Assembly (NCBI GenBank): GCA_025656675.1
Contig: JAHXHN010000003.1
Location: forward strand, 620,001 to 684,000
From: Candidatus Thiodiazotropha sp. (ex Codakia rugifera)
GTDB lineage: Bacteria > Pseudomonadota > Gammaproteobacteria > Chromatiales > Chromatiaceae
Reading direction: 5' to 3'
Length of the DNA: 64,000 nt
Shown here: piece by piece, positions 9,200 to 31,906 of the stretch
Layout: each line of letters opens with the position of its first letter
Position numbering within the stretch: the stretch's first letter is position 1
The notes under the pieces: model-generated
Seen by the model: only the letters and a program-made list of their open reading frames with translations
What the model was told of the DNA's origin: nothing
Database searches by the model: none
Program-made: the position numbers and the translations under genes

Positions 9200-9270
9200 G
9201 GCGAAATCAACCTTGTTTTATTGATTATGAAACTTTGAAAGGTAATACGTGGCGATGCGGGATTTGGATG

Positions 9271-10912: not shown

Positions 10913-10928
10913 CGGTAATCTGCCTGGG

Positions 10929-11186: not shown

Positions 11187-11593
11187 TTTTTCTCCTCCAA
11201 TAAGGATTCAATGTGTTGATAATCATAGCGGCGAAGTGGCTGTCACATTCGCCGTTGAAATTATTGTATATCAAAAAAATGCCGTTCAACTTGAGGGTAC
11301 ACTGCGTGTTAAGGAGCAGTCAGTGTGCTTAATATACGGTTGATATAACATTAAAGATTCATAAAAACATATGCTTACTAAGAGCCACTGATCTCTCATG
11401 ATAAACAGGATTTAACTGAGAGAGGTGGTGTTGTGATACTTTCGTTATTTAATTGTTATAACCCTATGACCTTCGGTCTAATTAAATAGAGGGCATGTCT
11501 GCTTTAGTTGTCATTATGCAACGCTTGAAAAAGTTGAAGACCAGTACAGTGACACGCGAGTGTGTACAACAATAACAATATCCGGAGACGCTG
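11187..11593. other. Divergent intergenic region between bufA and the ThDP-enzyme gene
   Basis: About 400 AT-rich bases between divergent transcription units. It must hold promoters for the bufferin operon (minus) and for the gene at 11594 (plus). I see no FNR palindrome and no convincing ECF-sigma or metal-repressor palindrome, and no gene. Confidence 0.5.
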
Positions 11594-13258
11594 ATGAAAG
11601 CTTCTGATCTAATGGTAAGGTGTTTGGAAAATGAAGGCATTGAATATATCTTTGGCGTGCCCGGAGAAGAGAATGCTGACTTCATGATGTCGCTGGAGCA
11701 GTCTGAGAAGATTAAATTCATCCTCACGCGGCATGAACAGGGCGCGGCATTCATGGCGGAGATCTACGGTCGATTGACAGGGAATCCGGCTGTTTGCCTG
11801 GGTACGCTGGGACCCGGTGCAACCAATCTCATAACCGGAGTGGCGGATGCCAATATGGATCGTGCTCCCATATTGGTTTTGACCGGCCAGGGATCCACTG
11901 CCCGGCTGCACAAAGAGTCGCATCAGATCATGGACGTGGTGGATATGTTCACCCCCGTCACAAAGTGGGCGACAAGTATCTACAACGCCATAACCATACC
12001 TGAGGTGGTACGCAAAGCCGTGCGTCTGGCCCGTACCGAAAAGCCGGGTGCCGTTCATATCGAATTGCCCGAGGATATCGCCAAACACCATGTCGAAGCT
12101 GAGCCGCTCGAGCCCCGCCGGTTTCGCCGTTCTGTAGCCGACGACAAGATAGCCGATCAGGCGTTTGAGTTGATCGCTAACGCCAAGAGACCGGTCATCA
12201 TTGCCGGTAACGGTGCCATTCGACGTCGTGCTGCAAAACAGCTGCGGTTATTTTGTGAGAAGACAGGGGTGGGAGTCTTGAGTACCTTTATGGCCAAAGG
12301 TGCCGTCGATATGGATGCCGATTACTGTCTCTATACCATCGGACTCGGCAGCAAGGACTATCCAACGTTGGCCATCGACGAATCCGATCTGGTGATCACG
12401 CTGGGCTTCGATATGGTCGAGTACCATCCGAAGTTATGGAATCCCCAAAAGAGCAAGACGATCATCCATGCCGATTTCATGCCTGCGGAGATTGATGAGT
12501 ATTATCATCCAAAGGTGGAATTGGTCGGTGACCTCGCTCACACGCTTTGGATGCTAAATGAGCGTCTGGCGACTCGGGGTAATTTTCAATTCGACCTGAC
12601 GCAACAGGCAGAGACGCGACGTTTGATGCAGGAAGAGCTGGCCGAACATGCCGATGACGATACTGTAGGGACGATTCGCCCACAAAAGATGTTGTGGGAT
12701 ATCCGCAATGTATTGGGTGAGAGGGATATAGTTCTGTCTGATGTGGGTGCACATAAAATGTGGATTGCACGTCACTACCATTGTCATGAACCCAATACCT
12801 GCCTGATCCCTAACGGCTTCTGTTCCATGGGGTTCGCGCTGCCCGGTGCCATCGCTGCCAGCCTGGTCATGCCGGATCGGCGTGTTCTCGGCATCTCCGG
12901 GGATGCAGGATTTCTAATGAATGTACAGGAGATGGAGACGGCCAAGCGACTCAACAGCAATCTGGTAATGCTGGTGTGGGAGGATCACGCTTACGGACTC
13001 ATCGCCTGGAAACAGGAGAGCGAGTTCGGACGGCATACCGATCTTGCATTCAACAACCCTGACTGGATGCAGTTGGCAGATGCATTCGGTTGGCATGGCT
13101 TTCGGGTCGAGCGGAGTGGAGACTTCAGCGACACACTGGAGAGAGCATTCCGTCAGCAGGGGCCGTCACTGGTCATTGTGCCTGTCGACTACCGGGAAAA
13201 CATGGCGTTGACAAGGCGCCTCGGCGAGATGACCGAGCCCTGTCCAGTCGCCAGCTGA
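11594..13258 (+). CDS. Acetolactate-synthase-like ThDP-dependent enzyme
   Basis: A full-length 554-residue ThDP enzyme of the IlvB/AlsS type: Pyr domain with GVPGEENADFM and the catalytic glutamate in RHEQGAAFMAEIYGR, central Rossmann-like domain (PVIIAGNGAIRR), and PP domain with the ThDP/Mg motif beginning ISGDAGFLMNVQEMETAKRLN. The closest recollected group is AlsS, which condenses two pyruvates to acetolactate. No ilvN regulatory subunit follows, and the partner gene is an FMN-dependent GltB-like protein, so the true reaction may differ from branched-chain synthesis. GGAG precedes the ATG. The intact active-site residues argue for an active decarboxylase or carboligase. Confidence 0.85.
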   Translation: MKASDLMVRCLENEGIEYIFGVPGEENADFMMSLEQSEKIKFILTRHEQGAAFMAEIYGRLTGNPAVCLGTLGPGATNLITGVADANMDRAPILVLTGQGSTARLHKESHQIMDVVDMFTPVTKWATSIYNAITIPEVVRKAVRLARTEKPGAVHIELPEDIAKHHVEAEPLEPRRFRRSVADDKIADQAFELIANAKRPVIIAGNGAIRRRAAKQLRLFCEKTGVGVLSTFMAKGAVDMDADYCLYTIGLGSKDYPTLAIDESDLVITLGFDMVEYHPKLWNPQKSKTIIHADFMPAEIDEYYHPKVELVGDLAHTLWMLNERLATRGNFQFDLTQQAETRRLMQEELAEHADDDTVGTIRPQKMLWDIRNVLGERDIVLSDVGAHKMWIARHYHCHEPNTCLIPNGFCSMGFALPGAIAASLVMPDRRVLGISGDAGFLMNVQEMETAKRLNSNLVMLVWEDHAYGLIAWKQESEFGRHTDLAFNNPDWMQLADAFGWHGFRVERSGDFSDTLERAFRQQGPSLVIVPVDYRENMALTRRLGEMTEPCPVAS

Positions 13259-13302
13259 ACGCTGCATCCACTAGAGCTCACATAAACCGGAGAGAGATAC
13301 TC

Positions 13303-14814
13303 ATGATGACAGCCGTGACAGAAAGCTGGGTATTTACCTTGCTAGAGGTGCTATCGGTCATATTTATATTCCTGATAGGACTGGGGCTTCTTACCGTCAC
13401 AGTGCTCTATATCATCGATGTCACACAGACTCAGCAGACGATCAGGCGCAACTACCCAGTGATCGGCCGCTTCCGCTACTTCTTTGAACATATGGGGGAG
13501 TTTTTCCGTCAATACTTTTTCGCCATGGATCGTGAGGAGATGCCGTTCAACCGAGCCGAAAGATCCTGGGCCTACCGTGCCGCGAAAGATGAGAACAACA
13601 CTATCGCCTTTGGTTCGACACGAGATCTTCGCCCCGCCGGCTCCATACTGTTCGTCAACTGCCCCTATCCAACCTTGGGAGAGGACGCAGTACCTGCGAG
13701 AGAGGTTGTCATCGGACCGCAATGCGCCAAACCCTATGCAACTGACTCTCTGATCAATATATCCGGCATGAGCTTTGGCGCTTTGTCGGTACTGGCGGTA
13801 CGCGCGCTCTCCACCGGGGCAAGCAAGGCCGGCTGCTGGATGAATACCGGAGAGGGGGGACTCTCTCCCTATCATCTTGAAGGTGGTGCCGATCTTGTGT
13901 TCCAGATCGGTACGGCGAAATTTGGTGTGCGCGATGAAGCGGGCAATCTGTCCGACGATAAACTCAAGGAGATCGCAGCGCATGAATCGGTTCGTATGTT
14001 CGAGATCAAGCTCAGTCAGGGGGCCAAACCCGGAAAGGGGGGAATACTGCCGGGCGCCAAAGTGACGGAAGAGATTGCCCGTATCCGTGGTATCAAAGTG
14101 GGTCAGGATGCCCTCAGCCCCAACCGACATCCTGACATCAACAATGCAGACGAGCTGTTGGATATGATTGAGGGGATACGTCGTGTCACCGGCAAGCCGG
14201 TGGGTTTCAAAACAGTGGTCGGTGCTTATGGCTGGTTGGAAACCCTGTTTGAAACAATCAATCGAAGGGGCAAGGAGAGTGCACCCGATTTTATTACCGT
14301 GGACGGTGCTGACGGTGGTACCGGTGCAGCACCCATGGCGTTGATGGACTATGTGGGACTACCACTCAATGAAAGTCTGCCGATGATGATCGACATGCTG
14401 TGTCGATTTGGTCTCAGGGACCGAGTCAGGGTTATCTGTTCGGGCAAGTTGATTACACCCGCTGGTGTTGCCTGGGCACTGGCGGTCGGGGCCGATTTCG
14501 TTGTTTCCGCCAGAGGATTCATGTTCGCACTGGGCTGTATTCAGGCGTTACAGTGTAACAAGAATACCTGTCCAACCGGCATCACCACTCATAACCCCAA
14601 GTTACAGCGTGGGCTTGTTTCCAAAGATAAGGCGGAACGCGTTGCCAACTATGTCAAAAACATGAACTACGAAGTCGGCCTGCTGGCTCACTCATGCGGT
14701 GTCAGGGAACCGCGTGAGCTGAAACGTTTTCATGCGCGTATCGTGATGGAGAATGGTAAATCCGTTCCGCTTGATGAGCTCTATCCACCGGTCACGCAGG
14801 ATGCCGGGGCATAG
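13303..14814 (+). CDS. Membrane-anchored FMN-binding glutamate-synthase-like protein
   Basis: From the ATG at 13303 (GGAGAGAG upstream) the protein has 503 residues. Residues 15-40 form a membrane segment; the rest resembles the FMN/iron-sulfur alpha-subunit core of GltB: NISGMSFGALSVLA, NTGEGGLSPYH, KPGKGGILPGAKV, TVDGADGGTGAAP and the 3Fe-4S motif CIQALQCNKNTCPTGI. It lacks the glutaminase domain. Such stand-alone proteins are annotated as glutamate-synthase-related but their substrates are not established. It lies 44 bases after the ThDP-enzyme gene, so the two are probably co-transcribed, an arrangement that suggests a shared pathway. Confidence 0.85.
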   Translation: MMTAVTESWVFTLLEVLSVIFIFLIGLGLLTVTVLYIIDVTQTQQTIRRNYPVIGRFRYFFEHMGEFFRQYFFAMDREEMPFNRAERSWAYRAAKDENNTIAFGSTRDLRPAGSILFVNCPYPTLGEDAVPAREVVIGPQCAKPYATDSLINISGMSFGALSVLAVRALSTGASKAGCWMNTGEGGLSPYHLEGGADLVFQIGTAKFGVRDEAGNLSDDKLKEIAAHESVRMFEIKLSQGAKPGKGGILPGAKVTEEIARIRGIKVGQDALSPNRHPDINNADELLDMIEGIRRVTGKPVGFKTVVGAYGWLETLFETINRRGKESAPDFITVDGADGGTGAAPMALMDYVGLPLNESLPMMIDMLCRFGLRDRVRVICSGKLITPAGVAWALAVGADFVVSARGFMFALGCIQALQCNKNTCPTGITTHNPKLQRGLVSKDKAERVANYVKNMNYEVGLLAHSCGVREPRELKRFHARIVMENGKSVPLDELYPPVTQDAGA

Positions 14815-15059
14815 TGCGCTCGCCACCTCGTATCATTCCTATCCGACTTGAGAAACACGATCACACCAGACGGAAAATAGATTTGTTGCTGGCGTGTATC
14901 GTGCTTCGATGTGACAGACCGGTTAAGTATCTGTTATTTTTTTGTGTATCTTCCGTGAACGATTACTGATCTTTCTCCCTTTTAATTGGTGTTGAAACCG
15001 GCCGGTCATTGCCCCCGGATCAATACACAGTCACAACTCGATAATTAGGAGAAATCAAT

Positions 15060-15524
15060 ATGAAAACCCAACACCCCAAACGGCTGAAACTGGCAGCCTC
15101 TGTAGCTGCACTGTTTGCAATGCCGCTCTCTCTCAGCGCCGAGACGATCACCGGCAAAATCAATGGTCATGAGTGCGCCCACCACGGTGCAAGCTGCCCG
15201 GTGGAGAAGCTCGATCCGCATATCGCGCTTGAATCGGACTTCGTGCTGATGATGGATAACGGCGAATATACCTTCATGCCCAACCTGAGCCGCGATATCA
15301 AGGTCAGGTATGTTCTGGATACCGTTCAAGTGGAAGGGAAAAAACACCCCAGGTTCAATGCGATCAAGGTCGATGTCTTTCGTGTCAAGCAGGGCGACAA
15401 GTTCGTCACCGTATGGACCCAAAAGCAGGCGGACTTCGAATACAAGGCGCTTTACGAAGACGGATATGCTTGGCCGGGTCAGCAAATTGAGTCACTGAAA
15501 AAGTATGACAAGCCAGCGAGTTGA
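15060..15524 (+). CDS. Exported protein of unknown function with a His/Cys cluster
   Basis: A 154-residue protein with a clear signal peptide (VAALFAMPLSLSAE) and a good GGAG upstream of the ATG at 15060. The mature protein begins with a conspicuous HECAHHGASC cluster that could bind a metal, then a region with YTFMPNLSRDIKVRYV. I do not recognise the family. It is bounded by a hairpin downstream, so it appears monocistronic. The preceding 245 bases carry no gene and probably contain its promoter. Confidence 0.75.
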   Translation: MKTQHPKRLKLAASVAALFAMPLSLSAETITGKINGHECAHHGASCPVEKLDPHIALESDFVLMMDNGEYTFMPNLSRDIKVRYVLDTVQVEGKKHPRFNAIKVDVFRVKQGDKFVTVWTQKQADFEYKALYEDGYAWPGQQIESLKKYDKPAS

Positions 15525-15542
15525 GCTGGATATAACAGGATT

Positions 15543-15574
15543 GCGTCAGACCCGGATCGATCTAGGTCTGACGC
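15543..15574. terminator. Hairpin after the HECAHH protein gene
   Basis: A perfect 10-bp stem, GCGTCAGACC and GGTCTGACGC, with a 12-base loop, 19 bases after the stop codon. The T run is missing. Confidence 0.5.
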
Positions 15575-15823
15575 TGGAACAATAAAGGACAGACCACGAT
15601 TGTTAAAAAACTTCCTGATTACCCACCAGATGCAGCTTTCGCTGCTTGGGCTACGTCTGGCGGAGAAACGGCAGTGTTGCTTCGGGTTGATCAGGCTGGT
15701 TTTTCAAAGAAAAGGGGGGGTATACATCCTATACTTCCTCCTTGACCGTACCCCAGCCATTCCGTTAAACATTTTTTCGTTGCGATGGCAGTCTGTTATG
15801 TCTGACAAACCAGATTCGATATC

Positions 15824-16129
15824 ATGAAACTATACGACCTATTCTATCGTCTCCCGATCATCACCTTCTTTATATTGATCGCATCCGGTTTCGTTTTCGG
15901 GGCGATGACGCTGAACATTTTTCGCCTTTTTGCGGCCAACTGGAACTTCATAAAAACCTACGGGATTATCGCGCTACACGAAGGTGCACTGATACAGACG
16001 ATGGAACTGCTCCTGACTGGCATACTCTCGATGATCATGTTCCTGACCTTTAAATTTTGCGAGAAGATTCTGATCGATCGGATGAGTGCGATAAAGCTCA
16101 AGCGTCGCAAGGCATCATCAGAAGACTGA
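15824..16129 (+). CDS. Small two-helix inner-membrane protein, unknown function
   Basis: A 101-residue protein with two membrane segments (FFILIASGFVFGAMTL near residues 15-32 and TMELLLTGILSMIMFL near 59-75) and a basic C-terminus, LKRRKAS. The family is unrecognised. The ribosome-binding site is weak. A hairpin follows. The hydrophobicity pattern and the acidic/basic tail make coding plausible, but there is no domain support. Confidence 0.6.
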   Translation: MKLYDLFYRLPIITFFILIASGFVFGAMTLNIFRLFAANWNFIKTYGIIALHEGALIQTMELLLTGILSMIMFLTFKFCEKILIDRMSAIKLKRRKASSED

Positions 16130-16148
16130 AAAAACCAAGGCAGACAAC

Positions 16149-16170
16149 GCCAGAGCCTGTTGACTCTGGC
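16149..16170. terminator. Hairpin after the small membrane protein gene
   Basis: GCCAGAG and CTCTGGC (16149-16155 and 16164-16170) form a 7-bp stem with an 8-base loop, about 20 bases after the stop codon, followed by AGCTTT. The next 295 bases hold no supported gene. Confidence 0.45.
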
Positions 16171-16465
16171 AGCTTTGGTCATGTCTGCGCAGTGACTCAC
16201 TTCGTCAATGGTGCAATGCTGTCCAAGGAAATAGCATAATCTTGGCTGTCTCTTTCTTCTGCAAGCGTTGCACTGAGAGCAATACGTGGAGAGTCTTCGA
16301 AGAACGGATAATCGACGATCCTAGAAAATTCAGCGAAGAGATTCTCAACTTGGTTCAGTTCCATTGCAGCGGAGTACCCTTTTCATTTAACACTACAATA
16401 AGCGGCGCTGAGCAACAAGGCTGCGGAGCGTCCAAGCGAGCATAGCGAATGACTTAATTGAGTGG

Positions 16466-16803
16466 TTATTGCTTGCTACGTAATTCACTTGGTTTCTTGT
16501 AACAATTATCAACGCACTCACAGCATATGCTTAGGTTCTTCTTTTCATGTTTAAATATGTGTTCTACCTCATTTGTTTTTATGCCGCAGTATGTATAAAT
16601 CGGATTCTTTTCTCGCTCTTCTAGTTCCTTTTGTGCTTTTGCTGCTATTTCATGAATCTTAAGCAAGATTCTTCGGATTTGGTGTTCTGTGAATCTTCAG
16701 GCGTTCTACCTAGCTGTTCATTCAAGTCTTGAAGCAATACCGCTTCTTTTCGTTTCATTGTGCCTAGCAACTTTCTAATTCTGTCATCCGTATTGATTAG
16801 CAC
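16466..16803 (-). pseudogene. Frameshifted small protein with a ClpX-type zinc-finger-like C-terminus
   Basis: Two minus-strand frames join into one plausible protein of about 112 residues. The first runs from GTG 16803 (or ATG 16758) and reads KRKEAVLLQDLNEQLGRTPED. Near 16670-16690 it must shift by one base to the second frame, which reads KIHEIAAKAQKELEEREKNP and then a region resembling the ClpX zinc finger: CGIKTNEV, followed by ICCECVDNC. The first cysteine of the classical CxxC pair is replaced by tyrosine. In the assembled sequence the upstream frame ends early and the downstream frame has only a TTG start, so the gene is either broken or carries a sequencing error. AT-rich composition sets it apart from its neighbours. 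Confidence 0.45.
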
Positions 16804-17006
16804 ATTCTTAGTATTTATAGGTGATTATCTAGCCAGCACTGATATGGGATATGCTGCTGGCACTGTCATTGGAATATAAAGCTCCGTAGATAATTCTCAT
16901 TTAGGTGTAACTGGCAGGACGCCGGGGGTATTGGATATCTTATTTAACAGTCCTAACGTAGCATTATAAATACCAGACTTAACAAAGACTGCTACGTCTA
17001 TTGAAC

Positions 17007-17513
17007 CTACTCTGCACCCGGTAACGGCACACCGGGACGAACGGTAATAAAACGATACGGGACCGAAACCAATCCTTGTTGAGTGTCGATCAGAACCTGG
17101 GCTTCCCACTCCATGGCATCCCAGACACAAACAGGCAGCATGCCGCTACCGGTAAATTCACCCGCTGAGCCATTCTTCAGCTTTATCCGATTGAATCCCA
17201 TGTTCATATCCACGCCACTGAAGTCGACTTCGATTTGATCCGCCTCCAGACCCTGCAGACTCACTTGTAACTGAAGCGGTTTCACAACCGGGAGTTCTCT
17301 GGGTTCGATGGAGAAACTGACAAGACTGCCATCCTCCAATTGTGTCACACAGGGTCCTGCTCGCAGATCGCATGCGGGGTCTACTGCAGCTTTTATGTTG
17401 ATTGTGGGAAATAGCATGGGCCAGGCTTTGTAGATGGCCACTGTGCAGACAGCGGCAATCAGCAAACCGAGAAGCACCCATAGGGTTGTATTGCTTTTGT
17501 TTGAGACTTCCAT
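17007..17513 (-). CDS. Membrane-anchored FixH/YtkA-like protein at the end of the nos operon
   Basis: A 168-residue protein with one N-terminal membrane helix (LWVLLGLLIAAVCTVAIYKAW) and a periplasmic beta-rich domain with VDMNMGFNRIKL and LPVCVWDAMEWEAQV. The Met pair, the conserved cysteine and the small Ig-like fold recall FixH/YtkA domains, which are associated with cytochrome oxidase and copper assembly. It starts 10 bases after the nosY stop codon with AGGA at the right distance, so it belongs to the nos operon. It could help deliver copper to NosZ or be a NosX-like helper; this is inference. Confidence 0.65.
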   Translation of the reverse strand: MEVSNKSNTTLWVLLGLLIAAVCTVAIYKAWPMLFPTINIKAAVDPACDLRAGPCVTQLEDGSLVSFSIEPRELPVVKPLQLQVSLQGLEADQIEVDFSGVDMNMGFNRIKLKNGSAGEFTGSGMLPVCVWDAMEWEAQVLIDTQQGLVSVPYRFITVRPGVPLPGAE

Positions 17514-17522
17514 CAATCGATC

Positions 17523-18350
17523 CTATGGCAGATCACTCCGCTTAAACAGAACAAACCCCAAACCGGCACAAACCGTACCCAGAGCAATGGGGTAAAGAAC
17601 GGCATAGGCGATGTACCCTAGCTGCCCGAAATTATCCAGTATCACATAGGCGGTAGGACCCAACAGCACCAGTTGCGGATCAAATAACATCATCGTGGCG
17701 GTACGAAAAACCTGCATCGGATTCGCCAGGGCAATCGCAACGGCTGTTTCCGGTGGAAGATGTTCCTGAATCAATACGCCCAGCAGTATAAGATCGAGGA
17801 ACAACAACAGGGTCAGCCATACTACAAAAGCAGCACCTTGTGCCACATCGGCACTTCGTGCCAGGGTGGAGATCAACATGCCGATGCCCAAAAAGCACCA
17901 GGCCAGGGCCATCAACAGGCCTGTGTAGTAGATCAACAGCTGCCAGGGTACATCAGCACCCTTTGCCATACCCCAGACCGTTGCGCCTATCATGGCAAGA
18001 AATACCGGTAGAAAGACCACAAAGAAGCGGCCGAACACACGTCCCCAAAACCAGGCACTGAGCGTGATAGGCAGGGAGAGAAGGTATTCAAACACACCGG
18101 CCTCACGATCGCCTGCCACCGATCTGACGGTTGTGATCAACACGAAGATGGGCAACATGGCCATGGAAAGCTGGATATAGGTAATCAGCAAGCGTGACAG
18201 GCCCGTAAAGCCCATGATACGCGACTCAGCAAGACCAAAGGCAAACAGAATCACGACCAGACCGCCAAATACCATGGCGTAGACCATGAACCAACGGGCA
18301 CGTAGGGATTCGATGATATCGGTATAGGCCGCCAGCCAGAGATATTTCAT
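17523..18350 (-). CDS. nosY: NosY, ABC-2-type permease of the NosFY maturation transporter
   Basis: A 275-residue protein with six predicted membrane helices and the ABC-2 permease motif ITTVRSVAGDREAGVFEYLLSLPIT near residues 75-100. NosY pairs with the ATPase NosF and the periplasmic NosD in maturation of the CuZ site of NosZ. The order here is nosF-nosL-nosY, with nosY about 125 bases downstream of nosL. Family assignment rests on the ABC-2 signature plus genomic context. Confidence 0.9.
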   Translation of the reverse strand: MKYLWLAAYTDIIESLRARWFMVYAMVFGGLVVILFAFGLAESRIMGFTGLSRLLITYIQLSMAMLPIFVLITTVRSVAGDREAGVFEYLLSLPITLSAWFWGRVFGRFFVVFLPVFLAMIGATVWGMAKGADVPWQLLIYYTGLLMALAWCFLGIGMLISTLARSADVAQGAAFVVWLTLLLFLDLILLGVLIQEHLPPETAVAIALANPMQVFRTATMMLFDPQLVLLGPTAYVILDNFGQLGYIAYAVLYPIALGTVCAGLGFVLFKRSDLP

Positions 18351-18474
18351 AAGCTATCGATTCTCGGTCAGTTATGTACAGCAGTTTATTTGTGGGTCCA
18401 GCGTCATCCCGGTGCAGACCGGATTGATGATTAAGCTGTTTGAGTAGGTCTACCTTAAATCAGTATCCTGTTGA

Positions 18475-19020
18475 TCAGTGTTGATTGTGGCGATGATCAT
18501 TCTGCTTCTCAGCTTTCCTGATCTCTGCCTGCTCTTTCAGTCGTTCCAAGAGGTGTACGCCATGTACATTGAAGCGCTTTTCCACCTCATTGATATGTTG
18601 CTTGGCCTGATCGAAAGTGAGTCCGTCTGATATTGTTTCGGACTGCGCACCCAAACCATACTCCATGGGCGTGAGATTACCTTTCACATAGGTTGCGAGA
18701 CGTGCGTCAATCCACTCACCTGTACGATGATCGGCAACCCAGATCTCGGTCTGTTGATCCCTCTCCCAGGGTTTGTCCGCCAACCATAGGACAGCGCAAC
18801 CGATATCATCAAAAAAGGCAACCACTGATCTTTTTTTCTCGGCTGGAAAGTAGCGTATCTGTGCCGCATGAAATCGATCACTCAATACCATACGACAACG
18901 TTCACAGGCATCCCTGTCCCACTTCACTTCTTTGGGGCCAGTGCCACTATCCCCGGAACAGGCAACCAGCAACAGCAGCGAAAGCAATGCGTAATGCAGT
19001 AATAGCGCTTTAGACCACAT
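18475..19020 (-). CDS. nosL: NosL, copper-binding lipoprotein chaperone
   Basis: A 181-residue lipoprotein: signal peptide ending in the lipobox LLVACSG, then the NosL signature DACERCRMVLSD followed by FHAAQI and FFDDIGCAVLWL. NosL binds Cu(I) and delivers it to apo-NosZ. The C-terminal tail is charged and ends in a His-rich stretch, NDHRHNQH, a possible extra metal site. The start at 19020 overlaps the nosF stop codon by 11 bases; any longer reading would extend into nosF coding sequence. Confidence 0.9.
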   Translation of the reverse strand: MWSKALLLHYALLSLLLLVACSGDSGTGPKEVKWDRDACERCRMVLSDRFHAAQIRYFPAEKKRSVVAFFDDIGCAVLWLADKPWERDQQTEIWVADHRTGEWIDARLATYVKGNLTPMEYGLGAQSETISDGLTFDQAKQHINEVEKRFNVHGVHLLERLKEQAEIRKAEKQNDHRHNQH

Positions 19021-19891
19021 TGACAGAGGGCTCCTTGTCCTCGGCCTCGATAATCTCCATGCCAGACAACAAAGCGGCATAGCGGGAAAGCAGGCCGAGA
19101 AAACGCAAACGGTCCGGTCCGGCGATAAAACCATCCCATACGAGCCCGCCATCCGATCCGTTGAATCCCCATTCACCAATCGCCTTGGCAAAGGCCGCTT
19201 CAGGTTGTATCAGTCGGATACGGCAATAGAGACGCGAAGAGAGATCCACAAGATCAGCCACCTTGTCGTCCAGCACGATCTCCCCCTGGTCCATCTCGAC
19301 AACCCGATTCACCAAGCTTGCCACCTCGTCGAGGCGATGGCTGGAAATCAACATCGCAGCGCGCTCTTTTTTCTCTGCCAGCAGGGTAAAGAAGATATGC
19401 CTTGCCTCAGGATCGAGATTGGCGGCAGGTTCATCCATCACCAGCAGCTCACTCTCCCGGCCAAGGGCAATCGCAATCAGCAGTTTCTGCTTCTGACCGC
19501 CGGAGAGTTTTACAAACGGCTGGCTGTGGAAGTGATCAGCATCGAAACCGAGTTTTCCCGCCACCGCCACCATCCTTCCCGGGTCGGTGTCACAAAGGCT
19601 GGCGGCAAAGCGTATCAGCTGCCCGACCGGCATCCGCAAGGGGGGTGGTAACTGCGGTACAAAGCCAACCTTTGACAGAACTTCACGGCGATACTGCCTG
19701 GGATCCTGGCCATCCACCGAAACACTGCCCTCGCAGTTGTATTCACCCAGGAGGCAACGGATAAGGGTGGTCTTGCCCGCACCATTCGAACCGACCAGTG
19801 CAACCCGGTGGCCACGTTCAATGGTCAGATTGACACCCTTCAATACCTGGTGCCGTCGAAAGCGCTTGACGATATTTTCAAATTGAATCAT
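19010..19891 (-). CDS. nosF: NosF, ABC ATPase of the NosFY transporter
   Basis: A 293-residue ABC ATPase: Walker [16 protein letters not shown], signature KLSGGQKQKLLIAIALGR, Walker B LLVMDEPAANLDPEA and the H-loop region ISSHRLDEVA, with a C-terminal ~90-residue domain typical of NosF/CcmA-like proteins. It energises NosY and, with NosD, is needed for CuZ assembly. The ATG at 19891 (MIQFENIVKRF) follows the nosH stop codon by about 20 bases; the ribosome-binding site is weak, so translational coupling is likely. Confidence 0.92.
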   Translation of the reverse strand: MIQFENIVKRFRRHQVLKGVNLTIERGHRVALVGSNGAGKTTLIRCLLGEYNCEGSVSVDGQDPRQYRREVLSKVGFVPQLPPPLRMPVGQLIRFAASLCDTDPGRMVAVAGKLGFDADHFHSQPFVKLSGGQKQKLLIAIALGRESELLVMDEPAANLDPEARHIFFTLLAEKKERAAMLISSHRLDEVASLVNRVVEMDQGEIVLDDKVADLVDLSSRLYCRIRLIQPEAAFAKAIGEWGFNGSDGGLVWDGFIAGPDRLRFLGLLSRYAALLSGMEIIEAEDKEPSVNVV

Positions 19892-19914
19892 TGGATGTTT
19901 GGAACTCTCATCAT

Positions 19915-20889
19915 CTACTTGAGCATCTTGCTCAGACCTTTGACCTCGTAGGTCAATGAATCTGTGGGACAGACATCCACGCACATACCACAGCGAGTAC
20001 AATCAGCGGCCACATCCTGATTAACGTCTTCAGCACCGCCACGGATGGTCAAATCCAACACATGCGGCACCAGGCAGACCTTACGGCAATCACCCTCATG
20101 GTGACAGGCTTCCGCATTGTATTTTACCCGTACCGGTGAAAAAAGACCGACCATGCCATAAGTGACACCAATCGGACAGACATACCGGCACCAGGCCCGA
20201 CGTGAGTAGAAGACTTCAACCAGCAACAGCAACCCGACCCAGACCAGCGCGATACCGGGACCATAGATCAATGCACGACTGAGGATACCTGTTGGCGAGA
20301 TGGTTTCGAACACGGTGTAACCCGTCAACAGTGCGAGCAAAGCAAAAATGATATAAAAAACACTGCGTACCTTACGACTGAAGGTATGGTTTTTGACGAT
20401 TTTCTTTTTCGCCAACCAGAGATGGAGATACTCAGCCCACTCTGACAACAGATGATAGGGGCAGACCCATGAACAGAATGTACGCCCACCGAGCAGCATC
20501 CACATCAGGAATACGGTCACCATACCGATGACCAGATTGAGCACAATATGTTTATAGGCCAGTGCAACCTGCAGGGCGGAATTGAGATCCGCAAAATGGA
20601 AACCGATAACACGTGCGCCGGTGAGTGACCCCTCCACCAGTTGCACGTCAAAATAGAATGAGGCGACAAACAGCAAATTGACAAAAATCAGGGTCGCCCA
20701 GCGACGCTTCTGCCATTTGTTGAAAAAGGTGCCCTTGTGTTCATGTCGAACCGCCTCGACATCCGCCTTGGAGAGCTTGCCTACTTTACCTTCATAGATC
20801 TCACGTACGGCCGGACTCAGTTGATCCTTTGTGGGTCTGGGAACCTTGTAGCCAAACAGCTGTACCAGAGAACGCTTGATATATCGCAT
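19915..20889 (-). CDS. nosH: NosH, NapH-like membrane iron-sulfur quinol-oxidising subunit
   Basis: A 324-residue protein with four or five membrane helices, two CxxxCP motifs at membrane edges (CSWVCP, CRYVCP) and a C-terminal ferredoxin-type CTRCGMCVDVCP cluster, plus a partial CHHEGDCRKVC site. This is the NapH/NosH architecture. In clade II nos clusters NosGH is proposed to oxidise menaquinol and pass electrons to NosC cytochromes in place of NosR. The ATG at 20889 has GGGAGG five bases upstream and lies just after the nosG stop codon. Confidence 0.92.
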   Translation of the reverse strand: MRYIKRSLVQLFGYKVPRPTKDQLSPAVREIYEGKVGKLSKADVEAVRHEHKGTFFNKWQKRRWATLIFVNLLFVASFYFDVQLVEGSLTGARVIGFHFADLNSALQVALAYKHIVLNLVIGMVTVFLMWMLLGGRTFCSWVCPYHLLSEWAEYLHLWLAKKKIVKNHTFSRKVRSVFYIIFALLALLTGYTVFETISPTGILSRALIYGPGIALVWVGLLLLVEVFYSRRAWCRYVCPIGVTYGMVGLFSPVRVKYNAEACHHEGDCRKVCLVPHVLDLTIRGGAEDVNQDVAADCTRCGMCVDVCPTDSLTYEVKGLSKMLK

Positions 20890-23522: not shown

Positions 23523-23543
23523 AATTCAACATTCAAAATTCTA
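23421..23543. repeat. Heptamer-based inverted repeat straddling the nosD start
   Basis: Both arms consist of imperfect heptamers of the TGAATGT / TGAATTA kind: 23422-23453 reads (TGAATGG, TGAATGT, TGAATGT, TGAATTG) and 23505-23543 contains the complementary series (TTCAATT, CATAATT, CATAATT, CAACATT). Between them lies a ~50-base spacer containing the perfect palindrome GTGTGTATACACAC (23457-23470). The whole can fold as a long hairpin and resembles a small non-autonomous repeat element. Confidence 0.65.
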
Positions 23544-24719
23544 GTTCTTTAGCTGCTTGAACCGAATCAGTGCCGCCACTGCAAGAATCAATGAAGTCAG
23601 TCCCATCAGTCCAAAACCCTTATAGGGATAGGAGTGGGTCGTAAACTGTGCCACCTTGCCATCGCCGAATACGGTTGGCATAAAGGGCTTGACAGAGAAG
23701 GCACCCATATCATTCAACGTATGCCCGTACCACCAGAGCCAGGCCGAATAATCGATGAGAAAAAACAGTGGCAAGGCAATAGGTACCAATATCAGTAACC
23801 AATAGAGCAGACCACCGTTCTTACGTGAGCCAAACACAACCAGTACCATTGCGCCCAGTATGCCAACGAATACCACATGAATCGCCAGCTCGAGGTTTTT
23901 CACCATCGGCACGATCTCTTCCTGGTTGTTGAAATAGCGACCCAGGCTCTTGGCATAGTGCCATGACATTACCTGAAAAGCACTGCCGTCCCATGGTGAC
24001 AAAGCATCTGATTTTACCTGATCGATATCGTAGGTGAGTTTTAGCTGTTTAATCAGATGCGCTTTTTCTGCACCGGTCGACTTGTCCTTGGACTTATTCG
24101 CCGCCGCCACTTGAGAAGGGAGAATGACTTCAACCCCTGACTCTTCCAATGAATCTTTGAGAACCCCGGCCACACCACCGATGACTATCTCAGGTTCACT
24201 TGTCTCACCGGATGCTTCCTGATCCAGGGATGTTACCAAAGCACTGACATAACCCGCATTCTGAAGGCTGAATCCATCTTTTCCATAGAGTGTGGCCGCC
24301 ATCCAAACTGCAATTCCAGCAAACCCCACACTTAACAGGGTCATGCGTAACTTTGGTTTCGTGCAGATAAAACCAATCAGCATCACCCCCATAAAGGCCA
24401 TAAGAAATTGACCAAATCCTCTTTCTACAGGACCACCAGCCGCAATTGGATACATGCCGACATAGTGGTTAATGGTATCCATCTCATGTACACAGTCCAG
24501 CGCTTCATCCTCAACGATTTCAGTCTTTACCTGTTTCTGACAACCATTAAATACACCATTCATGTGAAAATGGATGCGTACACCATCCGGGAACGACTCT
24601 TCCGGATAGTTGGGGGCTGTCAGCGACACCCACCAGATCGGTGTGTAGAAAATGACGGTTAGAAGTCCCAGCGCCACCAGGGTGAGTACTGCAACTTGAA
24701 GGGTTTGCTTAGACTGCAT
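23541..24719 (-). CDS. nosB: NosB, polytopic membrane protein of clade II nos clusters
   Basis: A 392-residue protein with one N-terminal helix, a periplasmic loop containing FHMNGVFNGCQKQV, then two further helices, a ~100-residue soluble loop, and three or four C-terminal helices with SAWLWWYGHTLNDMGAF and FTTHSYPYKGFG. This pattern is that of NosB, found only with clade II nosZ; its role is unresolved. The gene ends inside the repeat preceding nosD. A conserved His/Met-rich periplasmic face could bind copper. Confidence 0.85.
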   Translation of the reverse strand: MQSKQTLQVAVLTLVALGLLTVIFYTPIWWVSLTAPNYPEESFPDGVRIHFHMNGVFNGCQKQVKTEIVEDEALDCVHEMDTINHYVGMYPIAAGGPVERGFGQFLMAFMGVMLIGFICTKPKLRMTLLSVGFAGIAVWMAATLYGKDGFSLQNAGYVSALVTSLDQEASGETSEPEIVIGGVAGVLKDSLEESGVEVILPSQVAAANKSKDKSTGAEKAHLIKQLKLTYDIDQVKSDALSPWDGSAFQVMSWHYAKSLGRYFNNQEEIVPMVKNLELAIHVVFVGILGAMVLVVFGSRKNGGLLYWLLILVPIALPLFFLIDYSAWLWWYGHTLNDMGAFSVKPFMPTVFGDGKVAQFTTHSYPYKGFGLMGLTSLILAVAALIRFKQLKN

Positions 24720-26339: not shown

Positions 26340-28637
26340 TTACTTGACCTTTTTAGCTCCATGCTCTTCCAGGAAGGTCTTGGCACGTAGTCCCAAATCA
26401 GCGGTCTTAACCTGATACTGCCACCATTGACCGGCCCATAGAGTGGCATTCTGATAGTCACCCTTGCCAGCAAAGGTCTCAGACTTCTTCTTCGCCTCTT
26501 CGGCAAATCCCAGCTGATCAGTGGCATCTTCCACCAAGGCTACAACTTCAGGGAAGTCCTTATAGTTGTGACTGGTGATGAAGCCGACCACAGAGTCGAT
26601 GACTGCCTGCGTATCCACATTGGTCTTAACCTGCTTGTCGTAGTCAGCCTGAGTATATTTGGTACCTTCCTGGAGCTCAGTTGTCTTGGCGACATACCCC
26701 TTAGGCTTGACCAGCAGATAACCCTGCATCTCCAGATGCAATGCTGAGCAGAACTCGGTGCAGTAGTACGGGAAGACGCCGGCCCTTTCCGCCTTGAAGG
26801 TGGCTGATACGGTCTTACCGGGCTCGATGGAAAGGTTCACGTTCTGGCTATAGAGCGCAAAACCGTGGGTCTCATCCTCTGCACGTTCGAGATTGGTGAG
26901 GTGAATGGAAACGGTTTCACCCTCTTCCACTTCGATAATCTCGGGCGTGATATGCGAGCGAATCACTGTACCGTAAACATGCACCACACCGTCTTCGCCA
27001 CGCACCACCTTTTCACGACCTGCACGGGTCTTGTAAGGAGATTTGGTATCTGTACGGCTGTTCCAACCTGATTTGTAGCGCACCGCAGGCTTCAGCTTAT
27101 CGGCCTTGATCGCTACCACATAGTGGGGTTCGCCCAGAGGTAGTGGCATATCGTAGAGCAGTTGCATCTTATCGCCGCTGATATCAATCAGCTGATGATT
27201 CTGTGGATGCAGCGGACCGACCGGATTAAAACGATCAATGGCCAGCTTGTTCAGAGAGACCAGGTATTTACCATCAGGTGAGACAGAATCACCCTCCATC
27301 GCAACCAGATGGCCGATGTTGTAATGGATGTGCAGTTGATCCAGCACCTTGCCTTCACAGTAGTCCCACTTGGTCACCATCGAATCCACGTAGATCGAGG
27401 TATAGACCACACACTTCTTGGCATCGTACTGAGTATGCAGCGGCCCCAGTCCCACCTGTACCTGGGTGTGCAGCGCATCTTTCATGGCGATGATTGGAAT
27501 ACCATAGGGGTCTTTGCCTTCGAACTTCTTGTTCTTGATGGCTTTTTGGATCTTATCCCAACTATAGACCCAGGCATGGCTGTCCAGTTTACCGGAAACG
27601 ATGATATGTGTTCCGTCAGGGCTGACATCGACACCATGTGGACTCTTAGGCTCTGGAATCAGATAGAGCAGGCCCTCTTTCACAGCCTGGTCCATGGGAA
27701 TCATATAGGAGCCTTTGGACTTCTTGATCTTGCCGGCAGCAACCAACTCGGCAGCCTTCTTCCAATTAGTGACATGCAGGAAGTCGGTATCCTTCTGAGA
27801 ACAACCCGCCTCAAACGGAGGACGTCCGCGCTCGATACCGCCCACATAGCGCTCTGAGCAGAAAGAGTTGGTGAAGCCCCATCCCATGGAAGGTCCCTTA
27901 CCTGCATCGGAGAGATCCTGGCTGTAGGGTGGCAGTTCGAAGGTGAAAGACATTTCCGGATCGAGGCGACCCTTCTTGTCGTCGAACTTCCAGTAGGTTA
28001 CGGCACCACGATACTTTTCGTTGAACTGTTCCAGCGGCACGAATTCATCTTCGAAAGGTGCTGCATATTGTGCCGCTTCCATAACATATTCGGTATTCGG
28101 TGTTACGAAAGCGCCGCCATGCTCAGATTTCATGAACGGGTTGACAACAATCTGCTTAGTCTCGAAGTCGTGCAGATCGATCACAGCTAAGCGCGGATTG
28201 GCCTTGTCATTGATGAACAGGTAGCGGCCGTTGTACTCGCCTTTAGTTTCAGAGAATGCCGGATGATGCGTATCGCCGAAGTTAATATCCTTACCGTGAA
28301 TTCTACCCTGTGCCAGTACGGCTTTGGATTCATCATCGAACCCATAACCCTGCCAGGGTTCCGGGGTAAAAACACCAATATACTTCAGGATCCTCATGGA
28401 GGGGATACCGTATACAATCACCTGTCCACTCTGGCCACCCGAGCTGAAGGCCAGATACTCGTCGCGTCCACCCGTTGGTGTGTAAGTTTTAGCGGCAGCC
28501 AACAGATCCTTTTGTGTCAGGCCACGCTCCTTCATGACCTCCTCAAGCGACGATTTGGCAAAGGCATTGGAAGCGGCACCCATGCCGATCCCCAACCCTA
28601 TAGCTAGCGCGGTTATGCGTTTAAAGCTGTTTTTCAT
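26340..28637 (-). CDS. nosZ: Clade II nitrous oxide reductase with a C-terminal extension
   Basis: From ATG 28637 the protein has 765 residues. The N-terminal MKNSFKRITALAIGLGIGMG is a Sec, not a Tat, signal, as in clade II NosZ. The seven-bladed propeller carries CuZ histidine stretches (GDTHHPAFSET, SEHGGAF, KSPHGVDVSP, HIHYNIGH, GEPHYVV); the cupredoxin domain has the CuA motif CTEFCSALHLEM. After CuA comes a 120-residue tail without a haem motif, absent from clade I enzymes. It reduces N2O to N2 in the periplasm. Longer readings upstream (to 28793) are rejected because they cross the FNR box at 28725. Ligand-rich regions look intact. Confidence 0.97.
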   Translation of the reverse strand: MKNSFKRITALAIGLGIGMGAASNAFAKSSLEEVMKERGLTQKDLLAAAKTYTPTGGRDEYLAFSSGGQSGQVIVYGIPSMRILKYIGVFTPEPWQGYGFDDESKAVLAQGRIHGKDINFGDTHHPAFSETKGEYNGRYLFINDKANPRLAVIDLHDFETKQIVVNPFMKSEHGGAFVTPNTEYVMEAAQYAAPFEDEFVPLEQFNEKYRGAVTYWKFDDKKGRLDPEMSFTFELPPYSQDLSDAGKGPSMGWGFTNSFCSERYVGGIERGRPPFEAGCSQKDTDFLHVTNWKKAAELVAAGKIKKSKGSYMIPMDQAVKEGLLYLIPEPKSPHGVDVSPDGTHIIVSGKLDSHAWVYSWDKIQKAIKNKKFEGKDPYGIPIIAMKDALHTQVQVGLGPLHTQYDAKKCVVYTSIYVDSMVTKWDYCEGKVLDQLHIHYNIGHLVAMEGDSVSPDGKYLVSLNKLAIDRFNPVGPLHPQNHQLIDISGDKMQLLYDMPLPLGEPHYVVAIKADKLKPAVRYKSGWNSRTDTKSPYKTRAGREKVVRGEDGVVHVYGTVIRSHITPEIIEVEEGETVSIHLTNLERAEDETHGFALYSQNVNLSIEPGKTVSATFKAERAGVFPYYCTEFCSALHLEMQGYLLVKPKGYVAKTTELQEGTKYTQADYDKQVKTNVDTQAVIDSVVGFITSHNYKDFPEVVALVEDATDQLGFAEEAKKKSETFAGKGDYQNATLWAGQWWQYQVKTADLGLRAKTFLEEHGAKKVK

Positions 28638-28724
28638 TATTCCCCGTCCCCGTGGTTGGAAGAGATGTGAGATGCCTATCGGCATTACAGCGATAATGGT
28701 CGCAATATTGCGTGATATGCCACA

Positions 28725-28738
28725 TTGATGTAGGTCAA
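28725..28738. promoter_or_regulatory. FNR/DNR-type box upstream of nosZ
   Basis: TTGATGTAGGTCAA matches the FNR palindrome with one change in the right arm (GTCAA for ATCAA). Its centre lies about 95 bases before the nosZ start at 28637. Confidence 0.7.
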
Positions 28739-28920
28739 AACACACACTTATTGGTTTTAGAATTTTTCGTGAGAAACCTGAATGGATATTCACAATGAGA
28801 TAGGCGAGTTATTCCATTACCTATTAATAGGTAGAAATGGCTAGCGCTCCAGAAAAACAAAGCCGATCCGTATAACCACCCGATTGAACGTCATCGTACG
28901 GTGCTTTCCAGGTGGCGTCA

Positions 28921-30372
28921 CTATTTATCTACAAAATCCGTCAAACGTCGAGCAAGTTCCTCAGGAGAGATGCCATGGGCAAACTTGGTTATAAACCGGC
29001 CTTCCGGATCGAGCAGATAGAGACTCGCCGTGTGATCCATGAGATAGATATCCGGTTCCATCGCATCCTCCACAACCTTCTCATATTTCGCCTTGAACTG
29101 ACTCGCCACGCGATCGATCATTTTTTGTGAACCTGTGACACCGATCAATCGCTCATCATAATAGGTGACATAGTTTCGCATCACCTCAATTGAATCCCGT
29201 TGTGGATCGATGGTGATGAAGTAGGGCTGAAACAGGTCGGCGCTCTCCCCCAACAGGTCGAATGCCTGGAATAGAATCTGCAGCGAGGTCGGGCAGATAT
29301 CCGGACAAAAAGTGTAACCAAAATAGACAATCTGGTACTTTCCCGACATTGTCTGCTTGGTAACCAGACGACCCAGATGATCGGTCAAGAGAAATTGTCC
29401 ACTTCCAATGCCATCAATCACCTTTTTCGCATCCTGTTCGGCCAACTCCCGAGCAGCTCCTGCAGCCTGCATATCTGCATTCAGACAGCGTTTTATCTCA
29501 TCGGTATTGTGGTCCATCAGGTTGAAATAGAGATCAGGACCCACTGTCAAACCGACCCCGAAACTATTGAGAATACCGTGATTGATCTGGCTTCCCTCTA
29601 TGATCAACTCCATATTATCAGTCGGCAATCCCTTCTCCGATAGCAGACAGATGGCCTCTCCGGATATAATCCTCTCTCTCACCTTCAGCAGAGAAGCGGC
29701 ATTGATTGACTCTCGAGGCGAGCCCGATACACGTTCAAGTACCTTCAGTGCATAGGCCTGCTCAAAATATTGCAGGGTATCGAAGTATTGGACACCCAAT
29801 CCGGCTTTCATCCCTCTGTAACCGTATTCATACTCCCTGTCGATGCGTGCCAGCCGCGCCAACACCTTTCTTCTGTTACCTTCATACAGGTGTGAGCGTT
29901 TTGGATCGGCCTGCTGTAACAGACGGGTCATATCATCAAGAATGATCATGACATTACGGTTATCAAGCCAAAAGAAGGGATCTCGCTGATCAGAGGCTAT
30001 TCGTGAAGGTAGAATCTTCAGTCCCTCATGGGAGAGAAGTTCAATAACCTGGACCTTGGGTGGTAGCGCTTCAATCGTACCGACAAGCCCCTGTTCAAGT
30101 TCCGCTCCAACCCAGAATAATAAATCCGCTTCTTTTATCAGCTGTTGTTGTGCCTGAGTGGGAACATAGCCATAAGGTGTACGCTCTGTCCCGATCAGCA
30201 GCTCAGGGCCATCAGTACCCTCCATTAAGCCGGCCACAATGGAATGGATCGGCTTGATACTGACAACCACACGGAATGAGTCGAGTTTCTCTGCCGAATA
30301 GACGACAGAGGACGAGATAACCGAAACAAGAAATAATAGGGCTCCAGACCAACGCATGCTGTTACTGCTCAT
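28921..30372 (-). CDS. Fusion of a ZnuA-type metal-binding domain with an SCO copper chaperone
   Basis: A 483-residue exported protein. Residues ~30-320 resemble periplasmic solute-binding proteins of metal ABC transporters (VVVSIKPIHSIVAGLM with H43). The usual second His is a Tyr at residue 67 (RTPYGY), and the His of the third motif seems lost (GVQYFDTLQYFEQAY). Residues ~335-483 form an SCO domain with FCPDICP (C356, C360) and the distal His447 in LMDHTAS, so the copper/thiol centre is intact. It presumably handles copper for NosZ or CuA-type sites. It is preceded by a coupled gene (ATGA overlap) and followed by the nosZ promoter region. Confidence 0.85.
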   Translation of the reverse strand: MSSNSMRWSGALLFLVSVISSSVVYSAEKLDSFRVVVSIKPIHSIVAGLMEGTDGPELLIGTERTPYGYVPTQAQQQLIKEADLLFWVGAELEQGLVGTIEALPPKVQVIELLSHEGLKILPSRIASDQRDPFFWLDNRNVMIILDDMTRLLQQADPKRSHLYEGNRRKVLARLARIDREYEYGYRGMKAGLGVQYFDTLQYFEQAYALKVLERVSGSPRESINAASLLKVRERIISGEAICLLSEKGLPTDNMELIIEGSQINHGILNSFGVGLTVGPDLYFNLMDHNTDEIKRCLNADMQAAGAARELAEQDAKKVIDGIGSGQFLLTDHLGRLVTKQTMSGKYQIVYFGYTFCPDICPTSLQILFQAFDLLGESADLFQPYFITIDPQRDSIEVMRNYVTYYDERLIGVTGSQKMIDRVASQFKAKYEKVVEDAMEPDIYLMDHTASLYLLDPEGRFITKFAHGISPEELARRLTDFVDK

Positions 30373-30710
30373 TGTGTTGCGTATGCCGCCTCCAGTCTTT
30401 CCAATGCCTCATCCACCTGTTGAGCGAGCGACTGCGGACTGGGGCAAGTGCCTTTCTCATTGATGAATGCCATGAATGACTTATTGGTGTGATAATCAAA
30501 AAGTTCCCCCAACTGACGCCGTTTGGGAAGCGCTAATACCAATGCACGCTTGATACGCTGGGTATCCGGCAGCGCATTGCACTGCAATGCAATCCCATTC
30601 AGTTCACCCAGTGCCTTGATGGCTGCCAGTTGCGTGTCGTTTACCCCGTATGCCTGAATCTGCCAGAAGAACAGCAGGAGCAGTGAAATTAGTCTAAAGC
30701 GTTGAAACAT
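30369..30710 (-). CDS. Exported small protein coupled to the ZnuA-SCO fusion
   Basis: A 113-residue protein with a signal peptide (LISLLLLFFWQIQAYG), two cysteines (ALQCNALPD, GTCPSPQS) and an otherwise helical composition. It resembles no family I can name. Its stop overlaps the start of the ZnuA-SCO gene by four bases, implying coupled translation and joint function, perhaps metal or thiol handling. Confidence 0.7.
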   Translation of the reverse strand: MFQRFRLISLLLLFFWQIQAYGVNDTQLAAIKALGELNGIALQCNALPDTQRIKRALVLALPKRRQLGELFDYHTNKSFMAFINEKGTCPSPQSLAQQVDEALERLEAAYATQ

Positions 30711-30869: not shown

Positions 30870-31769
30870 TCATAGGGCAATATCAGACATGATACCTATA
30901 ATAACCAAGATTGGCGTCATCAATGTAACAACAACATTTTTGCCCAATTGGGGTACCAGTTTCTTAACATCTCCCTGATAGACACTGATATTTTTAAAAA
31001 TCTGGAAAGTAAATCCTGCTGTCAAAAGCCCGAGCAATGCAGTCAAGGGTAAGCTATCCACCAACACGCCAAGAATAATCACCAAATGAGTCATCATCCC
31101 AAAACCCAGAAAAATCCAAGCGCTCTTTGCTGGACTCCATGCGATCATAAAGTTATCTCTACCCACGCTGCGATCCGCATCTACGTCCGGCATCTGATTC
31201 AACAGCAGTAAATTGTTAACTAAAAAAAAGGGTATGAGCGACAACAGAAAAGCGATTGGACTGTAAACACCGGTTAAGGTGTAGTGTGTTCCAACCACCA
31301 TCAAGGGACCAAAACTGAGGCCCGGGGTAATGAGCACTAACAGCCGATGACGATTGATCCAGGTGGTATAGGAGATAATGATAAGTATCCCCACGATCCC
31401 AATAGGCATCAGACCCCAGCCTGTCCGCTGTAAAAGATAGAGGCCGCATATCAACGTAACAATCAATGATGTGACCCCTATGGCCAACGCATAAGGCGCC
31501 AGGCGTGGTTGAATAATCAGTGTTCCGCTGCCACCACTGAATGGTGTACGATCTGTCTTGAAATCAAGCCCTGATTGGAAATCGGTATACTCATTGAGGG
31601 CATTTACGCTGATATGTGCCATCAGTGCTCCCAAAAACACAACAGTGAGTAGATTCCAATCGACATCGTGACCAACCAATAGGACGCTGGACAGGCCCAG
31701 TGAGATGCAGATTGGTGTCAACATCAGAAAGCTGGGTCTTGCAACACCTAGTACGGGAAATGGGATCAT
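30870..31769 (-). CDS. UbiA-superfamily prenyltransferase, MenA-like
   Basis: A 299-residue protein with eight or nine membrane helices and the two Asp-rich prenyl-diphosphate sites of the superfamily: NEYTDFQSGLD (N-terminal motif) and DADRSVGRD (second motif). The TPFSGGSGTL stretch is typical of 1,4-dihydroxy-2-naphthoate polyprenyltransferases (MenA) rather than UbiA or haem-O synthase. Menaquinone or a related low-potential quinone would suit NosGH, which is thought to oxidise menaquinol. A perfect FNR box lies 130 bases upstream. The exact aromatic substrate cannot be read from sequence. Confidence 0.8.
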   Translation of the reverse strand: MIPFPVLGVARPSFLMLTPICISLGLSSVLLVGHDVDWNLLTVVFLGALMAHISVNALNEYTDFQSGLDFKTDRTPFSGGSGTLIIQPRLAPYALAIGVTSLIVTLICGLYLLQRTGWGLMPIGIVGILIIISYTTWINRHRLLVLITPGLSFGPLMVVGTHYTLTGVYSPIAFLLSLIPFFLVNNLLLLNQMPDVDADRSVGRDNFMIAWSPAKSAWIFLGFGMMTHLVIILGVLVDSLPLTALLGLLTAGFTFQIFKNISVYQGDVKKLVPQLGKNVVVTLMTPILVIIGIMSDIAL

Positions 31770-31892: not shown

Positions 31893-31906
31893 TTGATCGA
31901 TATCAA
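31893..31906. promoter_or_regulatory. FNR/DNR-type box upstream of the prenyltransferase gene
   Basis: TTGATCGATATCAA is a perfect FNR palindrome. The only gene it can serve is the prenyltransferase gene starting at 31769; the neighbouring pentapeptide-repeat gene ends at 31952. Confidence 0.75.

Follow-up and report, generated by a model that had tools for sequence, protein, structure and literature searches.

A two-gene unit next to nosZ was found in a 64,000-nucleotide stretch of DNA from Candidatus Thiodiazotropha sp. (ex Codakia rugifera), referred to here in its full length as the window. One gene encodes a polypeptide that joins a ZnuA-like domain to an SCO-type copper chaperone domain, and the other encodes a 113-residue protein with two invariant cysteines (p113). 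Because this unit goes with the capacity for nitrous oxide reduction among the genomes examined, it is probably a helper for the copper sites of nitrous oxide reductase (NosZ), and on balance we favor the reading that p113 and the fusion help to build the copper sites of the clade II (Sec-type) enzyme, most plausibly CuA. NosZ is the only enzyme known to destroy nitrous oxide, and its action is limited by the supply of copper. SCO proteins serve the CuA site of cytochrome oxidase and can function as thiol reductases as well. Small, linked to NosZ and with a partner of an unnamed family, the pair offers a candidate that lends itself to experiment; as clam and tubeworm symbionts carry it, it is also connected with the removal of N2O in the sea.

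The fusion was encoded at positions 28921 to 30372 on the minus strand in a single uninterrupted ORF of 483 amino acids, and p113 (113 amino acids) at 30369 to 30710 on the same strand, so that 4 bp were shared between the two frames. The gene immediately downstream of the fusion was nosZ (26340 to 28793, minus strand), the product of which matched the Sec-type family TIGR04246 with 878 bits against a cut-off of 625; its listed GTG start merely marks the longest frame, and the true start is likely near 28640. Upstream of p113 was a gene for a UbiA/MenA-like prenyltransferase (30870 to 31769, minus strand; Pfam and NCBIfam). A NosL-like protein (18475 to 19191, minus strand; PF05573, 25.0 bits against a cut-off of 24, listed frame overlong at the 5' end) was encoded between nosF- and nosY-like genes.

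Both parts of the fusion were recognized by Pfam: residues 35-296 (positions 29485 to 30270, minus strand) matched PF01297 with an E value of 3.3e-32 and 112.5 bits (cut-off 29), and residues 325-460 (28993 to 29400, minus strand) matched PF02630, SCO1-SenC, with an E value of 4.3e-44 and 150.2 bits (cut-off 22.8). The fusion missed every NCBIfam cut-off, the best being AztC with 82.7 of 350 bits. An AlphaFold2 model had a mean pLDDT of 89.2 and a pTM of 0.65, with a weak linker (pLDDT below 50 at residues 316-322). In Foldseek comparisons the ZnuA part matched E. coli ZnuA (2osv_A, TMt 0.91) and the SCO part matched ScoI (4wbj_A, TMt 0.88), and a chance domain match was rejected on the basis of these folds. 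An earlier note on this DNA, made from the sequence alone, had described one polypeptide composed of a solute-binding domain and an SCO domain, and the single ORF, the Pfam matches and the Foldseek matches bear this out, as the predicted ZnuA fold does for the solute-binding fold in residues 30-320. The residue numbers given there (H43, Y67, C356, C360 and H447) were correct.

The same note had asked whether two separate genes with a missed stop might lie behind the fusion. Loci were collected from named genomes with the patterns YFEQAYAL and [FYH]FWLD[NST]RN, and the best 80 of 84 were kept. The ZnuA and SCO parts lay within one ORF in 77 of these 80 loci (best 80 of 84), and a missed stop or an assembly error was therefore rejected. 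Two of the three remaining loci of the best 80 of 84 (L115 and L118) are cut off by the contig end within the ZnuA part; the third (L111) has two ORFs. In this locus, from the Lamellibrachia anaximandri symbiont (9567-20774), the ZnuA and SCO parts are in separate ORFs, and the sister record L058 has one ORF; the two-ORF state may reflect either a gene that has split or an error in the sequence.

The ZnuA domain of the fusion has lost its canonical zinc ligands. Alignment to Salmonella ZnuA (2xh8), whose three canonical histidines we take to be the zinc ligands, placed Y67, F133 and F197 of the window fusion at these positions, so all three were replaced. The substitution of Tyr67 for histidine had been noticed earlier and stood; the accompanying claim that H43 was a retained ligand did not. 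H43 sits in a KPxHS motif that the alignment puts outside the three-histidine site, Salmonella and E. coli ZnuA read KPLGF/KPVGF there, with glycine at the H43 position, and H43 was rejected as a leftover zinc ligand. Among 64 fusions (that of the window plus 63 of 75 ORFs of 440-520 amino acids, with rows left out by hand), none of the canonical histidines was kept in 46, one or two in 14, and all three in 4. In the 46 the positions were mostly occupied by tyrosine or phenylalanine; the spread at residue 133 was partly pre-selected because one of the scan patterns required F, Y or H there. All 11 rows of ordinary ZnuA, which were selected manually and with a KPxH-type motif and ten of which were from the same genus as the window, had all three histidines. 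H43, C242 and C296 were invariant in all 64 fusions, and the positions of the C242/C296 pair are cysteines in ZnuA too.

The four fusions with all three histidines formed one clade inside Thiodiazotropha, surrounded by histidine-poor relatives in a tree with open forks, and under parsimony the three canonical sites changed 5, 3 and 8 times. This nesting means that the site was either regained in that clade or lost many times. The solute-binding part of the window fusion has, judging from its residues, probably lost canonical metal binding, as the earlier note proposed, and this description suits 46 of the 64 fusions. It fails as a statement about every member, because a clade of the same genus carries all three histidines.

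A role as the binding protein of a zinc transporter is unlikely, since the genome has a separate ZnuA-Fur-ABC-ABC-3 zinc cluster elsewhere. Pfam found no ABC-3 transporter among the ten window proteins scanned. The fusion resembles ZnuA and AztC (PF01297) in its fold, its KPxHS-type motif and its C242/C296 pair, and differs from them in its three replaced zinc ligands, its C-terminal SCO domain and the absence of transporter genes among the scanned window proteins. One could suppose that a reshaped site in the domain still holds zinc or copper, and that the domain thereby supplies or controls the SCO domain as a metal acceptor or sensor. The invariance of H43, the partial or complete histidine sets in 18 fusions and the repeated changes at these positions are in keeping with such a site, but the complete loss in most fusions, the lack of an ABC-3 match and the existence of a genome, G159, with p113 and SCO and no ZnuA part at E values up to 1e-45 all speak against it, and we regard it as quite unlikely. 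Because the zinc ligands are mostly gone and no transporter gene was present among the scanned window proteins, the ZnuA part is best seen as a docking domain. Descended from a zinc-binding protein, it seems to work without an ABC transporter, and it probably serves to dock or position its partner, with the invariant His43 presumably still in use.

In the SCO domain, by comparison, the copper site is intact, as had been noted for C356, C360 and H447 in the window. These three residues and D389 were invariant in all 64 fusions, so that a CxxxC pair and a distal histidine were present in every one. The SCO part was 38% identical to ScoI over 157 columns. The fusion is like SCO/SenC chaperones (ScoI, SenC2 and human SCO1) in fold (TMt 0.82-0.93) and in the CPxxxCP motif with its distal histidine, and unlike them in that its SCO domain stands behind a ZnuA-like domain, is coupled to p113 and is tied to NosZ; its only candidate for an anchor is its signal peptide, which was recognized by eye as a Sec signal peptide without a lipobox. 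Besides the fusion, the same genome encodes four SCO proteins (the gene for one lies behind CtaA, that for another among cytochrome and peroxidase genes) and one PCuAC. A tree with the fusion and p113-linked SCOs as one clade was not rejected (p-AU 0.721) in a test that had one row (L153 'nosSCO', which is the fusion of G529) on the wrong side, and a free quick tree mixed the fusion and p113-linked SCOs with long-branched SCOs.

The partner protein, p113, has a signal peptide (by eye) and is helical. Its cysteines C44 and C89 were invariant in 65 sequences (that of the window and 64 of 77 p113 ORFs, with rows left out by hand). The predicted structure was a four-helix bundle after the signal helix (pLDDT 91.8), for which Foldseek gave no match at E values of 0.001 or below, the best being 3.4. 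No useful match to the family was found in Pfam, NCBIfam, PHROGs, PDB sequences or Foldseek, and assignment to a known family was rejected; the best of the weak Pfam matches was DUF3218, with an E value of 0.00029 and in 2 of 65 members. No tblastn match to p113 was found in 72,556 plasmid records, and none of 379 plasmid records that matched the fusion covered 80% of it.

The two genes are regular partners, and the earlier description of an exported two-cysteine protein translationally coupled to the fusion agrees with the 4 bp overlap in the window. Among the best 80 of 84 loci, p113 was present in 77, the fusion in 77, and both in 74; the three loci without p113 (L066, L070 and L071) all begin at or near the ZnuA part. 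With starts chosen by script, the junction in the 74 loci was an overlap of 4 bp in 29, of 1 bp in 3 and of more in 8, and a gap of 3-185 bp in 34. No other constant neighbor was found at 36 loci examined, nearly all of which were without nos genes. The gene that follows p113 in G048 and G159 encodes SCO with no ZnuA part, and in G352 a single ORF of 297 residues (L041, G352:C91, 1105-1998, plus strand) joins p113 directly to SCO. The ZnuA part is usually fused; it is separate in G048 and in G352, where it lies on another contig (L039), and none was found in G159 at the threshold given above. Since p113 adjoins or is fused to SCO where the ZnuA part is missing from the protein, p113 and SCO are likely the core of the unit.

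A core of this kind might instead be a thiol-disulfide system, in which SCO and p113 keep the cysteines of NosZ (CuA) or of a nos cytochrome c reduced before insertion of metal or heme. The two invariant cysteines of p113 would suit this role, as would the likeness of the SCO part to ScoI, for which a mixed disulfide complex with TlpA has been solved according to the title of the structure. In G048 the stand-alone ZnuA-like gene is behind a DsbD_TM (CcdA-type) gene, and in G529 the p113-fusion is behind DsbA-like and DsbB genes, but in an unsystematic reading these were the only two places in which thiol genes were noticed beside the unit. The distal histidine of the copper site is also invariant in 64 of 64 fusions, and a pure reductase should not need one. 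We consider a purely thiol-disulfide role unlikely, if well worth keeping in mind, and retain help with the copper sites of NosZ as the preferred reading.

The link between p113 and NosZ is strong. In a class sample of 369 genomes, 59 had a NosZ match (at 1e-60), and in 21 the Sec-type enzyme was over the cut-off. All 11 of the genomes with p113, which spread over seven families, had a NosZ match, ten of them the Sec-type enzyme, and none of the 310 genomes without a NosZ match carried p113. Fisher tests gave p values of 3.3e-13 for p113 against Sec-type NosZ and 7.5e-10 against any NosZ, from hand-entered counts and without correction for kinship. The exception, G241 (87% complete), has p113 and a NosZ match below the Sec-type cut-off, which is probably of the TAT type. 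In a second class, both genomes with p113 (G529 and G547) have Sec-type NosZ; the NosZ check covered these two, and the phylum sample was made up of them and 296 other genomes. Neither p113 nor the fusion was found in 11 of the 21 class genomes with Sec-type NosZ. In other words, NosZ can mature without the unit, which is an aid and no requirement.

The position of the unit beside nosZ, which the earlier note had taken as part of its description, holds for the window and for some of its relatives. In the flanks of the best 80 of 84 loci, many of which end with the contig, nosZ was found in 30, other nos genes in 8 and no nos gene in 42, and this last number counts against the reading of the unit as a NosZ helper. 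A NosZ match was present in 39 of the 49 genomes whose locus lacked nosZ, and in 36 it was over the cut-off. In the other ten no NosZ was found at E values up to 1e-40; nine of these are MAGs by title and the tenth is the Solemya velum symbiont. In two of the ten (L105 and L121) the unit adjoins nos genes. In L121, from the S. velum symbiont (3529-11362), transposase genes reach to a point shortly upstream of NosY-p113-fusion, and the locus looks like a decayed nos cluster.

Control by an FNR/DNR-type regulator was examined by motif search. In the window, a box with one mismatch (28725 to 28738) was found upstream of nosZ. A perfect one (31893 to 31906) preceded the UbiA-like gene and lay about 1.2 kb from p113, which had no box of its own among those with zero or one mismatch. 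A terminator-like hairpin between the UbiA-like gene and p113 (30789-30769) was no more than expected by chance. The starts of p113 were compared (220 bp upstream plus 20 bp of the gene) with random windows of the same loci for 72 of 77 p113 loci, five with less than 200 bp being dropped and the window itself lying outside the set. A perfect TTGAT-N4-ATCAA box was found near the start in 11 of the 72 loci against 0.8 expected; when one mismatch was allowed, the count was 17, with 2.8 expected. Both numbers are inflated by near relatives. The boxes are thus enriched, but 33 of the 72 starts had none better than three mismatches, and this, together with the placement of the window box before the UbiA-like gene and not before p113, again argues against a NosZ helper.

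These same observations bear on whether a different copper enzyme used in denitrification or microaerobic growth, such as cytochrome oxidase, is the client of the pair, with life style behind the shared occurrence with NosZ. FNR-type control is not specific to nos, genes read as nor-type are present upstream in the window, and more than half of the flanks lacked nos genes; however, p113 was absent from every NosZ-less genome of the class sample, many of which are expected to respire with copper oxidases, and in lucinid and tubeworm symbionts the pair is tightly adjacent to nosZ. We therefore think service to another enzyme very unlikely.

For the pair as a helper of NosZ, the following mechanism is proposed. 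The two periplasmic proteins would be made from what is probably one transcript. The work itself would fall to the SCO domain, whose CPxxxCP motif and distal histidine would take up a copper ion, reduce the CuA cysteines of NosZ, or both. With its two invariant cysteines, p113 would be the dedicated partner of this domain as copper donor, thiol partner or docking protein. NosL and NosDFY would serve CuZ, and the pair would act alongside them, in addition to NosL, on CuA. Three points make CuA the likelier target: the similar site of cytochrome oxidase is served by SCO proteins, NosL is for CuZ, and senC2 offers a precedent. In its most specific form, which we put forward as tentative and somewhat doubtful, the unit would be a dedicated two-protein device for loading CuA, with p113 as a new family of SCO partners handing over copper or electrons, and with the ZnuA domain as a docking module that aims SCO at NosZ, its zinc site perhaps regained in one symbiont clade.

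The precedent is from P. denitrificans: according to section 6.4 of the review PMC7558416, this bacterium reduces less N2O at low copper once senC2, pcuC or Pden_4445 has been deleted. On that account, both systems would combine an SCO protein with accessory proteins for NosZ at low copper, a function that in the window pair is a supposition; the accessory proteins appear to be other than p113. NosL is described in PMC6530538 as a dedicated NosZ copper chaperone, for CuZ, encoded in the nos cluster. The window pair is of another family, with no NosL match in either protein (P0001 or P0002; Pfam), and the NosL-like gene is separate in the same window. The same paper reports that CuA can be reconstituted by copper alone and that nosL mutants lose both copper sites at low copper; from the latter, NosL may feed CuA too. 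Both findings speak against a separate route to this site.

The spread of the fusion was examined at several levels of relatedness. Within the genus it was found in 21 of 22 genomes, including the window's own, the exception being a genome of 2.6 Mb. Among 56 relatives a match was found in 25 (own counted), 24 of them near full length in one frame and the 25th split. At 1e-45, 10 of the 369 genomes of the class sample had a match: seven full-length, two split and one to SCO only. The closest of the named-genome loci (best 80 of 84) were from Ca. Thiodiazotropha MAGs, which are lucinid clam symbionts, with 91% and 90% identity. Carriers among the best 80 of 84 loci included Thiodiazotropha, Escarpia and Lamellibrachia symbionts, Sedimenticola, Ca. 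Thioglobus perditus, Thiohalomonas and the Solemya velum symbiont, besides others. In the second class, p113 adjoins the ZnuA part in both G529 and G547, the locus of the latter ending inside the ZnuA part, and in G529 this ZnuA part is fused to SCO. Literature searches found no paper with the ZnuA-SCO fusion or the p113-fusion pair in its title.

Several other observations were made in these loci. Sedimenticola selenatireducens BK-1 has two copies of the p113-fusion pair (L075 and L082). In L081, L091 and L109 the p113-fusion adjoins, by reading, apparent menaquinone genes and nos-type diheme cytochromes, and a cupredoxin-like gene was read near the p113-fusion in L081 and L091. A protein of 392 residues in the nos cluster of the window (23541-24719, minus strand), which we take to be NosB, had no Pfam or NCBIfam match and occurred in 12 of the 17 regions compared, nosZ being the basis of 16 of these. 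Behind NosY a protein of 169 residues is encoded (17007-17516, minus strand), and its relatives adjoin SCO genes near nosZ in L140 and L146. Further FNR/DNR-type boxes with zero or one mismatch were found in the window at 3841, 7482, 25745, 34779 and 39417, and several of these precede nos or nor genes.
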